A stretch of 42,485 bases of DNA from Parcubacteria group bacterium Greene0416_39. Lineage in GTDB: Bacteria > Patescibacteriota > Minisyncoccia > Minisyncoccales > UBA10102. Location of the stretch: contig VMEU01000002.1 in the NCBI GenBank assembly GCA_007375675.1, forward strand, positions 1 to 42,485. Direction: 5' to 3'. Under the pieces are notes generated by a model. That model saw only the letters and a program-made list of their open reading frames with translations, was not told where the DNA came from and ran no database searches. This document shows positions 32,842-42,485 of this stretch, piece by piece (positions within the stretch are counted from its first letter, which is position 1; each line of letters begins with the position of its first letter). Made by a program: the position numbers and the translations under genes.

Positions 32842-37558
<4,717 letters not shown>

Positions 37559-37565
37559 TAGTGGC

Positions 37566-38225
37566 ATGCCACGGCGGAAAGAAAAAATGTTTCTTGAGGG
37601 GAGACCATATCATATCCTCAACAAAGCGGTTGACCAAAGGCCCATTTTTGGCTTAAAAGAAGACTGCAACCGTTTTATTTTTCAAATGTACGCGGCAAAT
37701 ATAGGAAGCCCCGCGCCAAATCTTCAGCGTCTCAATATTGGGGAAGCCGCGCAAAAAATCCTTAGAGGAGAAAAACTTTCCGATAAATTTCTTATAAAGA
37801 GCCACGACCCCTTAGTTGAATTTTTCAGTTTTGTTTTAGCAAAAGACCATTATCATTTTGGCCTTGTTCCTTTAGCTGGCAATGGCATTTCCAGGTATAT
37901 GCAAAAATTGAACCTTGCATACGCAAAATATTTTAACAAAAAACACGAGCGTCAAGGCCCTCTTTTTGAAACAAGATTTCGCGCCAAGGCAATCACAACT
38001 CCAGCCCAGCTCAATGCATTGGTAAAAATGATTAATATCCAAAATATTCTTGAGATTGCGGAGGATCCTTCCGTGTACTTTTACTCAAGTTTTCCTGACG
38101 TGTTCTCCAAGCGCAAGTCGCTGTTCATTCTTCCTGCAACACTTTCTGAACTCAAAAAAAACCTTGGAGAGGATTTCTTTAAAAGCATAAGTTTGAAATC
38201 CGATTTACAACAAGTTAGAAAATGA
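37566..38225 (+). CDS. REP-associated tyrosine (Y1/IS200-like) transposase
   Basis: YHILNKAVDQRPIFG; FVLAKDHYHFGLVPL (HUH-type HxH); ISRYMQKLNLAYAKYFNKKHERQGPLFETRFRAKAI. Confidence 0.88.
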   Translation: MPRRKEKMFLEGRPYHILNKAVDQRPIFGLKEDCNRFIFQMYAANIGSPAPNLQRLNIGEAAQKILRGEKLSDKFLIKSHDPLVEFFSFVLAKDHYHFGLVPLAGNGISRYMQKLNLAYAKYFNKKHERQGPLFETRFRAKAITTPAQLNALVKMINIQNILEIAEDPSVYFYSSFPDVFSKRKSLFILPATLSELKKNLGEDFFKSISLKSDLQQVRK

Positions 38226-38258
38226 ACGTAAAATAGCGTTTTATACCCGGTTTTAAAC

Positions 38259-39341
38259 ATGCTAGCCCATTTTAAAAATCTTGACTGGATCATAATAGGA
38301 AGCGTCATTCTCCTCACTATTTTTGGCATTGTGAGTATTTGGAGCATCTCTGTGGGGTACCAAAACTTCGCAAACTTTGAGAAACAGCTTATTTTCTTTG
38401 GAATAGGGCTATTTTGTATGTTTTTGTTCTCTTTTATTGATTGGAGATGGATTAAAAATAATCCTTATTTGATTCTTATACTGTATGGGGTTGGGGTTCT
38501 CGCAATTGCAGGCCTTTTTATCTTTGCGCCAGAGATCAGAGGTACAAGAGGGTGGTATAAAATAGGGGCTCTATCGGTTGATCCAATAGAGTATATGAAG
38601 GTACTCCTTATTATTTTAATGGCAAAATATTTCTCTATGCGCCATATTGAAATGTATCGGATACGGCACGTTCTTCTATCGGGGCTTTACTTTGCCTTGC
38701 CAATTTCTCTTATCTTTTTTAAGCCAGACCTTGGTTCTACCCTGCTTTTAAGCATAATTTGGCTTGTAACCTTAATTGTTTCAGGAATAAAGAAGCGCCA
38801 CCTCTTTATTATTCTTTCTGTTGGATTGGTCATCTTTGCTTCAGGATGGACCTTTGTATTGCAAGATTATCAAAAGAACCGTATTCTAAGTTTTGTAGAG
38901 CCCGAATTAGATCCTCTAGGTATTGGATGGAGCCAACTTCAATCTAAAATAGCTGTTGGAAACGGGGGAGTATTTGGTACCGGTTTCCAACAAGGGAGTC
39001 AAACTATGTATGGATTTCTTTCAGAGCCGCAAACCGACTTCATTTTTGCTTCAATAGCTGAAGAATTCGGATTTGCAGGGATTGTTTTTTTGTTTACCTT
39101 ATTCGGAGTTCTCATTTGGAGAGTGTTAAAGCTGGCCAGGGAAGCGCAAAGCAATTTTCCAAGGCTTATTGGAACAGGATTTGCAACCCTTTTGATCGTG
39201 GAAATAGGCATAAACGTTGGCATGAACCTTGGCTTACTCCCTATTGTAGGCCTTCCCTTGCCTTTTGTAAGCTATGGAGGATCGTCTCTTATTATGGGAT
39301 ATGCTGCCTTAGGCCTTTTGCAGAGCATCAAAACCCACTAA
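38259..39341 (+). CDS. rodA: SEDS family RodA/FtsW
   Basis: Multi-TM; FIFAPEIRGTRGWYKIGALSVDPIEYMKVLLI; LSEPQTDFIFASIAEEFGFAG; PFVSYGGSSLI. Confidence 0.93.
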   Translation: MLAHFKNLDWIIIGSVILLTIFGIVSIWSISVGYQNFANFEKQLIFFGIGLFCMFLFSFIDWRWIKNNPYLILILYGVGVLAIAGLFIFAPEIRGTRGWYKIGALSVDPIEYMKVLLIILMAKYFSMRHIEMYRIRHVLLSGLYFALPISLIFFKPDLGSTLLLSIIWLVTLIVSGIKKRHLFIILSVGLVIFASGWTFVLQDYQKNRILSFVEPELDPLGIGWSQLQSKIAVGNGGVFGTGFQQGSQTMYGFLSEPQTDFIFASIAEEFGFAGIVFLFTLFGVLIWRVLKLAREAQSNFPRLIGTGFATLLIVEIGINVGMNLGLLPIVGLPLPFVSYGGSSLIMGYAALGLLQSIKTH

Positions 39342-39346
39342 AACAC

Positions 39347-39371
39347 AAAATTTGCCTTTAGGGCAAATTTT
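39347..39371. terminator. terminator-like hairpin after rodA
   Basis: AAAATTTGCC-tttag-GGCAAATTTT. Confidence 0.65.
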
Positions 39372-39376
39372 CGGTT

Positions 39377-39448
39377 CTCCCCGTGTAGGAAAACAGCGAG
39401 TGAAGCGAGCGTTAGAAACCGTGGGTTTCTAAAAGAGGGGGGTCGGGG
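39377..39448. repeat. dispersed intergenic element, copy 2 (permuted)
   Basis: ctccccgtgtaggaaaacag / cgttagaaaccgtgggtttctaa / agaggggggtcgggg. Confidence 0.8.
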
Positions 39449-39466
39449 GGAACCGTGTGAGCGTAT

Positions 39467-39515
39467 ATCGGTTATCCACACATATCCTCTTGACAGAGCT
39501 GTGTGCTTAACCGAT
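39467..39515. promoter_or_regulatory. operator-like inverted repeat containing a DnaA-box sequence
   Basis: ATCGGTTATCCACACA (39467-39482) / TGTGTGCTTAACCGAT (39500-39515), 14/16 complementary; TTATCCACA at 39472-39480. Confidence 0.65.
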
Positions 39516-39518
39516 ACT
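39490..39518 (+). promoter_or_regulatory. sigma70-type promoter
   Basis: TTGACA-N17-GATACT. Confidence 0.7.
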
Positions 39519-39524
39519 AAACCT

Positions 39525-39615
39525 GTAGAACTTTTCAACAAGAACCCTAGGGAAAATTACCCCTTAAAGGAAATAGAAATCCTTGAGGGAAATTTTGCCT
39601 AGGGTTTTTTGTTTT
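39525..39615 (+). ncRNA. candidate small RNA ending in a long hairpin terminator
   Basis: Begins ~7 nt after the -10; AACCCTAGG/CCTAGGGTT closing stem (39543-39606) with further inner pairing and a TTTTGTTTT tail. Confidence 0.5.
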
Positions 39616-39713
39616 AGGAAGCGATAAATAAAATGCAAATCTACAAATGATATACGAATGCCGCGAATAAAAAGTAGTATTTGTACATTCGCAAGCATTC
39701 GTAGATTAGCATT

Positions 39714-42485
39714 ATGAATACAGAAGAACCAAAATACATTTCGCTTCAAGAGGCAACGCAATTCTGCAATTACTCGCAAGAGTATTTGAGTTTGCGTGCA
39801 AGGAGCGGAAAATTGCGCGCAGTAAAAATAGGCCGCAATTGGGTCACCACGAAAGAGTGGTTGGAAGAGTATGTTGGTGGAACAAAAAAACTCCGTCCTC
39901 CTGAAAATCTTCCAATGGAGGAAGAAGAAGTTTTTTCAGAACCGTCTCAATGGCTTCCCATATTGGAGAAAGTAGGAGCTTTTGCTCTTGCGAGTCTCGC
40001 AGTTGTATTTTTTGCTACAGGAGGAATTGCATTTGGCAAAGACGGATTTTTCGAAACAACGTATCGGATAAACGGCCTTGCCCAAAGCTTTGGAAAAGGA
40101 TTTGACGTTGGAGCTGCATCTGTGGGTGATGGCGTAAAAGAGTATGCGGGGTGGCTCGGAGAAAATATTTCTGCGCTCAATAAAAAAGTTGAGCAAGAAC
40201 TGAAACAGAATTTCAATACTGTGGCGCGAGGATATGAAGAACTAGATGAAGGATTTTTTGAAACAACGTATCGGATGAATGTTCTTGCGCAGGAATTTGG
40301 CACAGGGTTTGATATGGGATTGCAGGCAGCACAAAAAGGGTTGGTGCAAGGATATGAAGAGCTAAAAGGAGAGTTTGAGACGGGGCTTGGCATTGCAAAA
40401 AAGACTATTCCAGAAAATTTGCAACATGCGCAAAAAAATTTGGCGCAAAAATACGAGGACCTGAATGACAGTATCAGGGATACATATTCAAGCATTCAAA
40501 AAGGGGTTAGCATAGTGGCGTTTCGTGCGGATACAACTGTACAAGAATTTGGGCAAGGGTTTGATGTTGGGGTTAGTATTGTTGTTCAAGACTTTCAAGA
40601 CGCATTTGGCTCTGGCCTTCAATTCTCAGCAGCTGTTGGAGATGGGGCAAAAGGATATGGAAGCTGGTTTAAAGAAAACATTACAGAGAGTGGCAGGGCT
40701 ATCAAGCATACATATGTAAACCTGCAAAAAGGAGTGACGAGGGCAGCAAAGAACGTGGCTGAACTTCTCACAAAAGAAGAATTCGTCGAGCCTGAACGGC
40801 CTATTGTGGTTTTGGAGGAAGAAAAGAAAACAGAAACGCCCTTGCTCGTGCGAGAGATTGAAGTCTCGCGTGTCACAAGAATTGAGCCGGTGCGCGAGAT
40901 TGTGCGGGAAGTGGTAGTTGCAGACAATGTTCAGCTCGTAGCTGATATGCAAGAAGATCTTCAAGATGTGCTTGCCTGGAGAGGCGCCTTGAGAGGAGAG
41001 ATTGAAAGTCTTAAACAGATCACTGCAAAACTTCAGTCAACTCCTCCTTCTTCTTCTGGAGTGAGCGCGCCAATCTACATTAGCTCGGGAGGTCTTCAGG
41101 TTGGTGGCAATGGCACGTTTTCTTCTTTAGGAGTTTCAGGATTCGCGAGCGTAGACAGTTTGTCAATTGGGAGGTCTGCAACAATCAGCCAAAACCTTAT
41201 TGTCGGCGCAGCCACTTCTGTAGTAGAAACCCTTGCAAACCCTGGTTTTCTTATAAATGGAGACGACCTCTTTGTTGCCGGATCCGCAGGCATTAAAGGC
41301 AACATCTACACAGACGGCACTCTTATTGTAGGAGGAGGAACCACCATATATGGAGACAACTCTATCACCATTGCAAACGCAGGAACGTTAACCGTCACCG
41401 ACGGTACCAACACCCTGTTCTCTGTGGTAGACAACGGAACAACTGGAACGGTTAGTGTCACAGGCAGTTTAGACCTGAACAACACCACAACCACAGCAAT
41501 TTCTGCAAACGCAAACGCAAAAATATTGAACATTCAGGGAACGTTTATTGAAGCAGCATCTGGAGTTCACGCAAGAATGGCAGGCCTTGAAATTACTCCA
41601 CCCACCATTACCGCGGGAGTAGCAACCGTAACAGACACCGCTTCCTTATATATATCAGCCGCACCGACCGCAACAGTAACAGGCGCCAACTACGCTTTGT
41701 GGGTAGATGCAGGCACTACAAGGTTAGATGGAAATGTAGGCATCGGGACTGCAACTCCCTTAACGGCATTGCATATTAGTTCTACCGACGGTCTTATTAT
41801 CCCGGTTGGGACCACAGGGCAAAGGCCTGGTACTGCCACCACCGGTACCATTAGATATAATGCCACCACCTCGCAATTTGAAGGTTTCGGCACTGCGAGC
41901 TGGGGTTCTTTGGGCGGTCTTATTGACGTAGACCAAGATACCTATATTAGCGCTGAAACCAGCCCAGGCGCAGATAACGATGAATTGAGGTTTTTTACCG
42001 CGGGCACTGAAAGAATGCGAATTCTTATCACCGGCAACGTTGGCGTTGGCAATACAGCCTCCACAGCGTTGCTTGATGTGAACAACACAACAACCATAAC
42101 CATTACTGCAGCAGCAAACGCCAGAGTTCTCAACGTGCAGGGAGCATTCACAGAAGCAGCATCTGGAGTTCACGCAAGAATTGCAGGCTTTGAAATCACT
42201 CCGCCCACCATTACCGCGGGAGTAGCAACCGTAACAGACACCGCTTCCTTATATATATCAGCCGCACCCACCGCAACAGTAACAGGCGCCAACTACGCTT
42301 TGTGGGTAGACGCAGGTGCAAGCAAGTTTGACGGAGCCATTACTGCAGATGGATTGATCATAGGCACAGGCGGTCTCACTCTCACTGGAGCAACAGCCAT
42401 TGCCATTGGCAACAACTTGAGCACAGTAGCCATAGACTCTTCTGACTGGGATATTACTGCCACAGGAGTCATGACAGGCATTGGA
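39714..42485 (+). CDS. large HTH (excisionase/MerR-like)-TM-fibre repeat protein (3' truncated by window edge)
   Basis: Frame open for 924 codons to the window end (absent from the ORF track because there is no stop). MNTEEPKYISLQEATQFCNYSQEYLSLRARSGKLRAVKIGRNWVTTKEWLEEY, then TM FALASLAVVFFATGGIAF, then long Ala/Thr/Gly beta-type repeats with GNVGIGTATPLTALHI. Confidence 0.85.
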   Translation, partial: MNTEEPKYISLQEATQFCNYSQEYLSLRARSGKLRAVKIGRNWVTTKEWLEEYVGGTKKLRPPENLPMEEEEVFSEPSQWLPILEKVGAFALASLAVVFFATGGIAFGKDGFFETTYRINGLAQSFGKGFDVGAASVGDGVKEYAGWLGENISALNKKVEQELKQNFNTVARGYEELDEGFFETTYRMNVLAQEFGTGFDMGLQAAQKGLVQGYEELKGEFETGLGIAKKTIPENLQHAQKNLAQKYEDLNDSIRDTYSSIQKGVSIVAFRADTTVQEFGQGFDVGVSIVVQDFQDAFGSGLQFSAAVGDGAKGYGSWFKENITESGRAIKHTYVNLQKGVTRAAKNVAELLTKEEFVEPERPIVVLEEEKKTETPLLVREIEVSRVTRIEPVREIVREVVVADNVQLVADMQEDLQDVLAWRGALRGEIESLKQITAKLQSTPPSSSGVSAPIYISSGGLQVGGNGTFSSLGVSGFASVDSLSIGRSATISQNLIVGAATSVVETLANPGFLINGDDLFVAGSAGIKGNIYTDGTLIVGGGTTIYGDNSITIANAGTLTVTDGTNTLFSVVDNGTTGTVSVTGSLDLNNTTTTAISANANAKILNIQGTFIEAASGVHARMAGLEITPPTITAGVATVTDTASLYISAAPTATVTGANYALWVDAGTTRLDGNVGIGTATPLTALHISSTDGLIIPVGTTGQRPGTATTGTIRYNATTSQFEGFGTASWGSLGGLIDVDQDTYISAETSPGADNDELRFFTAGTERMRILITGNVGVGNTASTALLDVNNTTTITITAAANARVLNVQGAFTEAASGVHARIAGFEITPPTITAGVATVTDTASLYISAAPTATVTGANYALWVDAGASKFDGAITADGLIIGTGGLTLTGATAIAIGNNLSTVAIDSSDWDITATGVMTGIG
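41550..41714 (+). repeat. 165-bp near-identical direct repeat, copy 1
   Basis: EAASGVHARMAGLEITPPTITAGVATVTDTASLYISAAPTATVTGANYALWVDAG. Confidence 0.9.
42153..42317 (+). repeat. 165-bp near-identical direct repeat, copy 2 (offset 603 bp)
   Basis: EAASGVHARIAGFEITPPTITAGVATVTDTASLYISAAPTATVTGANYALWVDAG. Confidence 0.9.

Follow-up and report, generated by a model that had tools for sequence, protein, structure and literature searches.

Organization of the locus

The window analyzed in this study is the complete contig VMEU01000002.1 (42,485 bp). Its gene order is ftsA, ftsZ, a comEC-like gene, genes for an aminotransferase, a trypsin/PDZ protease, and a Clp ATPase, ligA, a Y1 transposase-like gene, ftsW/rodA, and a gene encoding an HTH, a transmembrane (TM) helix, and a surface part, referred to here as the HTH-TM gene. 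The HTH-TM gene is single-copy in the 517-kb host genome, and no phage genes were identified next to it in the window. Its frame is stop-free from the ATG at 39714 to the contig end; as the window spans the entire contig, the gene lacks its 3' end here. The ftsW/rodA gene and the segments of the encoded protein were located as follows.

38259..39341, + strand: FtsW/RodA gene, the syntenic upstream neighbour (PF01098, 283.9 bits)
39714..42485, + strand: HTH-TM-surface protein gene, 5' part (924 codons, 3' end off the contig)
39732..39881, + strand: winged HTH, aa 7-56 (AF2, Foldseek, 100 homologous HTH copies)
39882..39977, + strand: cytosolic acidic linker with PPENLP motif, aa 57-88 (sequence; NLP in homologues)
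39978..40034, + strand: transmembrane helix, aa 89-107 (hydropathy, AF2)
40035..41065, + strand: helical extracellular stalk with FFETTYR..FG.GFD.G repeats (sequence)
41080..42485, + strand: Thr/Ala/Gly-rich beta-repeat, tail-fibre-like exterior (PHROG matches)

A sequence-only reading had described an ORF without a stop in the window, encoding an N-terminal HTH, an acidic linker and a TM, helical repeats, and then Thr/Ala/Gly-rich beta repeats with a tail-fibre signature; this layout was borne out throughout. The linker contains PPENLPMEEEEVFSEPS, and its NLP motif is kept in 36 of 92 homologues. The hydropathy peak at aa 89-107 coincides largely with a helix at aa 80-106 in the AF2 model. 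In the helical region (aa ~108-450), FFETTYR...FG.GFD.G repeats start at aa 112, 181, and 279. The beta region carries GNVGIGTATPLTALHI at about aa 689-704 and matches virion structural/baseplate families of PHROG (phrog_6005, 4e-26). AF2 modelling of part of the exterior repeats gave a pLDDT of 46, and the model was unusable.

The HTH domain and its topology

A winged HTH was predicted by AF2 (43 sequences) at a pLDDT of ~97, together with a helix across the TM; SQEYLSLRAR is the recognition helix and KIGRNWVTT the wing. HTH_17 was the sole HTH match in Pfam (aa 8-54, 15.9 bits, under the curated cut-off of 27), with no match to the OmpR/PhoB-type winged helix (Trans_reg_C). Excisionase families of PHROG matched the window HTH at E-values of 0.016-0.018, and a sequence search of the PDB with the N-terminus gave no match. 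The best PDB folds in Foldseek were BldC-DNA, Pukovnik Xis, RdfS, and RacA-DNA, and the 50 best were mostly DNA-binding BldC/Xis/RacA/MerR proteins; with E-values of at least 0.03 and high probability, these matches support the fold class, not close homology. The HTH region thus folds, in the models, as a DNA-binding-type domain, in keeping with the earlier proposal.

The TM lies in the same chain as the HTH, as judged by hydropathy across 92 homologues. The mean net charge in the homologues is +7.8 on the N-side and -1.4 in the 60 aa past the TM, a bias that fits the predicted N-in topology. An AxA-like motif past the TM was found in 21 of the 92 homologues, and signal-peptide-type cleavage may be possible for these members. 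On this comparative evidence, the TM looks like an anchor and not a cleaved signal peptide.

Distribution and gene neighbourhood of the family

The HTH is encoded in 102 of the 247 genomes of the order. From the fetched loci we collected 99 ORFs of other genomes, which yielded 96 distinct upstream regions for the promoter counts given below. All have the order seen in the window, which is therefore beyond chance: one or two HTHs, then the TM, then a variable exterior of 0 to >5,000 aa. The complete ORFs encode 112 to 5,308 aa, and the TM lies at about aa 70-190 in nearly all ORFs of sufficient length. The HTH is near-invariant (all 100 copies have the same residue at the positions aligned with W43, K38, L25, and L27) and the exterior varies freely. 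A Peptidase_S74 chaperone, for which the sequence-only reading had suggested a search, was detected at the C-terminus of one homologue, L059 (44.6 bits, cut-off 22).

Beyond the order, the HTH was also found in a phylum-wide sample of 382 genomes, both in giant proteins and as 73-95-aa ORFs. Scanning named genomes with an HTH alignment gave 198 related stretches, and the 80 of these that were retained include Nealson-, Wildermuth-, Portnoy-, Gribaldo-, Torok-, and Komeilibacteria, mostly Parcubacteria/Paceibacterota; the same scan with a single HTH sequence gave no match. One locus labelled Omnitrophica WOR_2 (L177, MHGW01000050.1) also has the HTH, possibly through misbinning. In two genomes (L048 in G108 and L050 in G109), rodA and the giant gene are separated by a 121-125-aa HTH-TM gene, a paralogue with the regulator part only. 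Tandem HTH pairs precede the TM in L105, L109, L112, L121, L126-L128, L132, and L143, and in L126-L128 the coding sequence itself contains a TATCCGATAC site close to the second HTH.

The HTH-TM gene lies within 1.5 kb downstream of rodA in 60 of 90 loci, mostly after ligA. This position in the ftsA-ftsZ-ligA-ftsW neighbourhood, the presence of MreB in 30 of 30 relatives, and an HTH-TM-exterior layout resembling that of RodZ would suit a shape or division factor. In that case the HTH would bind MreB or another protein in the cytosol, and not DNA, and link the cytoskeleton with FtsW/RodA and the cell surface. We consider such a role improbable: no RodZ match was obtained in Pfam up to E = 1, RodZ was not among the 50 best PDB folds, most of them DNA-binding proteins, and the DNA sites described below accompany the HTH gene at loci away from rodA as well. 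Soluble HTH homologues, moreover, head operons that bear the same palindrome.

Promoter, candidate operator sites, and DnaA-box-like site

The sequence-only reading had placed a possible operator at a dyad (39467-39515), the 17-nt arms of which are 88% complementary. The dyad holds two inverted TATCGGTTA sites (39466-39474 and 39508-39516), and the following elements were assigned in and around it.

37203..37232, no strand: inverted TATCGGATA pair inside ligA, possible auxiliary sites
38655..38663, + strand: TATCGGATA inside ftsW/rodA, encoding conserved YRI; may be coding constraint
39466..39474, + strand: candidate operator half-site 1, overlapping the DnaA-box-like site
39472..39480, + strand: TTATCCACA, DnaA-box consensus, 9 bp upstream of the -35
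39490..39518, + strand: sigma-70-type promoter TTGACA-17-GATACT
39508..39516, - strand: candidate operator half-site 2, overlapping the -10
39540..39609, + strand: stable leader hairpin with T-run (z = -6.0, -38.7 kcal/mol), possible attenuator between promoter and ATG
40062..40070, + strand: TATCGGATA inside the HTH-TM gene itself

The promoter layout common to the family consists of an operator, ATCGG-N4-CCGAT (often a half-site), abutting TTATCCACA, followed by 9 bp, TTGACA, 17 bp, the -10, and a second operator; the window promoter carries separated half-sites and not the full palindrome. Among the 96 upstream regions, TTATCCACA (searched as TGTGGATAA on either strand) occurred in 54, against 0.6 expected, with 53 boxes in forward and 4 in reverse orientation, and TATCCGATA occurred in 50, against about 1.3 expected. 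The exact operator half-site is missing from 31 of these regions. Where box and -35 are both exact (43 genes), the box is followed by 9 (7-13) bp, TTGAC, a 17-bp spacer, and the -10, and the operator sites abut the box and/or sit about +12 to +104 from the start of the -35.

TATCGGWTA has six copies in the host genome, all at 37203-40070, that is, within 2.9 kb around the HTH-TM gene, and among them are two inverted pairs, spaced by 21 and 42 bp. Of 19,753 9-mer families that share its shape and have 5-8 copies in this genome, it was the sole one with all copies inside 3 kb. Such clustering, and the RacA-DNA structure among the fold matches, could also be accommodated by a chromosome-to-membrane tether, in which an HTH array would pin the site-rich ligA-ftsW-own-gene locus to the envelope in the manner of RacA or ParB and not act on transcription. 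This explanation appears very improbable, since the sites of relatives peak within 400 bp before the gene, with a low shoulder farther upstream, since promoter-overlapping positions fit regulation, and since some coding sites are accounted for by conserved residues. The site inside rodA was considered as a conserved auxiliary operator and rejected, being mostly accounted for by conserved YRI codons.

Association of the operator with the HTH gene

The operator is present at 20 of the 38 HTH genes located away from rodA, and it is rare elsewhere in the same genomes. Conversely, 13 rodA loci were taken from genomes without an HTH match; 11 were readable, and ten of these have no operator-box pair after rodA, although one has a single site 540 bp on and another a single box 1.4 kb on. 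In L230, the eleventh locus, the contig ends 598 bp after rodA, just beyond an operator-box-operator arrangement, and its HTH gene has therefore probably been lost to assembly. A general promoter feature was ruled out as the source of the operator, as 19 of 20 regions at other DnaA-box promoters lack a nearby operator. DnaA-box/-35 promoters were also seen before apparent ribonucleotide reductase genes (G000:C4:59618 and L281; protein read by eye) and at MscS-like genes (G000:C14:6912 and L268).

Outside the order, TATCGG-NTAN-CCGATA (at least 12 of 14 matches) was found in 64% of 22 HTH upstream regions and in 0.5% of control windows drawn from the same loci; as the palindrome was recognised while some of these sequences were being viewed, this is a strong enrichment and not a blind test. 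In several of these other classes, the HTH is a separate 72-83-aa protein heading an operon for giant or membrane proteins. L246 has a 72-aa HTH gene with a gene for a 2,575-aa protein immediately after it; in L248, an 83-aa HTH precedes a surface protein whose start resembles a signal peptide; and in L249, L251, L254, and L256 the HTH gene heads a run of mostly single-TM proteins. We read the separate small HTH as a putative regulator that the order of the host has fused to its target.

Another regulator might bind ATCGG..CCGAT, with the HTH a conserved fusion of different function. Box and operator motifs are both enriched, and binding of the operator by the HTH is a prediction, which leaves some room for this alternative. 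We nevertheless regard it as having little probability, for the motif is rare elsewhere in the same genomes and follows the HTH gene across classes, even where a small gene of its own encodes the HTH.

Leader region and repeats

Long leader hairpins were found in relatives too. A simple terminator scan did not flag the hairpin at 39540..39609, and Rfam gave no credible family in the leader or in its relatives. In 28 of the 96 upstream regions (e.g., L143, L110, L100, and L122), an opposite-strand TTGACA-16/17-TAxxxT lies between the promoter and the ATG. This element would yield a hairpin RNA of 50-110 nt, in most cases with a T-rich end, and is a candidate antisense RNA; no Rfam match to it was obtained in the 12 loci searched, and an alignment of the antisense hairpins gave no consensus pairs. 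Together, leader hairpin and antisense elements suggest that there may be extra control after initiation.

A dispersed palindromic repeat of ~80 bp (ACGAATGC..GCGAAT type) lies directly before the ATG (39632-39713). It has tens of partial copies in the genome, spread over host contigs C1, C3, C4, C11, C12, and C14, and is possibly MITE/REP-like; in view of these copies, the near-ATG dyad was rejected as a private operator. The 82 bp at 39379-39460, which lie between rodA and the promoter, recur at C14:8548-8629 with 95% identity.

Proposed mechanism

The explanation that accounts best for these data, and which we hold to be likely, is a membrane-anchored one-component autoregulator fused to its own surface product. 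The BldC/Xis/MerR-like winged HTH would remain cytosolic and bind ATCGG-N4-CCGAT sites, often as half-sites, that flank or overlap its own promoter; the single TM helix would be the anchor, and the remainder the surface stalk and fibre. Acting from the membrane, or from the nascent chain, the HTH would in this way limit the output of a very large protein. Regulation is probably negative, i.e., repression of the own gene, as one operator lies over the -10 and the other over the DnaA-box-like site at an activator position. It is plausible that BldC-like oligomers occupy the sites, whose spacings of 21 and 42 bp equal two and four turns. From the sequences we infer the binding of the HTH to the operator, the repression, the role of DnaA, and the outside signal in this explanation. 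Autoregulation through the adjacent dyad, as proposed in the sequence-only reading, thus stands as the best, still predicted, reading: the half-site recurs in homologous promoters phylum-wide and tracks the HTH gene.

The protein may also be a contact-sensing adhesin and transcription factor. Its exterior would touch the host or a neighbour, the TM would relay load or binding to the HTH, and the HTH, with DnaA, would set the expression of the surface stalk and perhaps of nearby division genes. We think this rather unlikely; if true, host attachment and the cell cycle would be linked in Patescibacteria. Replication in these bacteria seems to be stimulated by host attachment (PMC7906910), and the control of their differentiation has been described as completely unknown (PMC11665869).

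In this family, a surface protein that is very large and variable forms a single polypeptide with a DNA-binding domain that apparently controls its gene, in tiny host-associated Patescibacteria/Parcubacteria with few known regulators. The family provides a testable operator sequence, promoter layout, and domain, with the split-gene form of other classes as a natural comparison, and a way into the question of how the surface is tuned in these bacteria and possibly coupled to the cell cycle.

Comparison with known systems

The HTH-TM-surface family is apparently undescribed; no earlier description was found in the literature searched, which was mostly open-access and without bioRxiv, so that this is weak evidence of novelty. 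The protein resembles phage tail-fibre and S74-type proteins in its GNVGIGT repeats, its PHROG virion matches, and the S74 chaperone of L059. Unlike these, it is cellular, membrane-anchored, and encoded in a cell-division gene neighbourhood. With RodZ it shares the order of HTH, TM, and exterior and the proximity to rodA; it differs in HTH class, in having no RodZ family match, and in the presence of DNA sites. The fold and size of the HTH are those of BldC, Xis, and RdfS (6ama, 4j2n, and 8dgl; PMC5859096), with target-normalised TM-scores of about 0.6-0.79, a likeness that makes oligomeric binding to repeated sites plausible. Those proteins are soluble, whereas here the HTH is fused to a TM and an exterior, and the operator is a palindrome or a pair of half-sites.

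The closest kind is that of the transmembrane transcription regulators of the ToxR/CadC type, which have a cytosolic DNA-binding domain, a single TM, and an extracellular C-terminal part (PMC10269533); the main text of that survey does not name Patescibacteria. ToxR/CadC-type proteins act on promoters from the membrane, and the same is predicted for the present family. Their HTH is OmpR-type and their outer part a small sensor; the MerR/BldC-type HTH, the giant fibre-like product outside, and an apparent main target that is the own gene set the HTH-TM-surface family apart.
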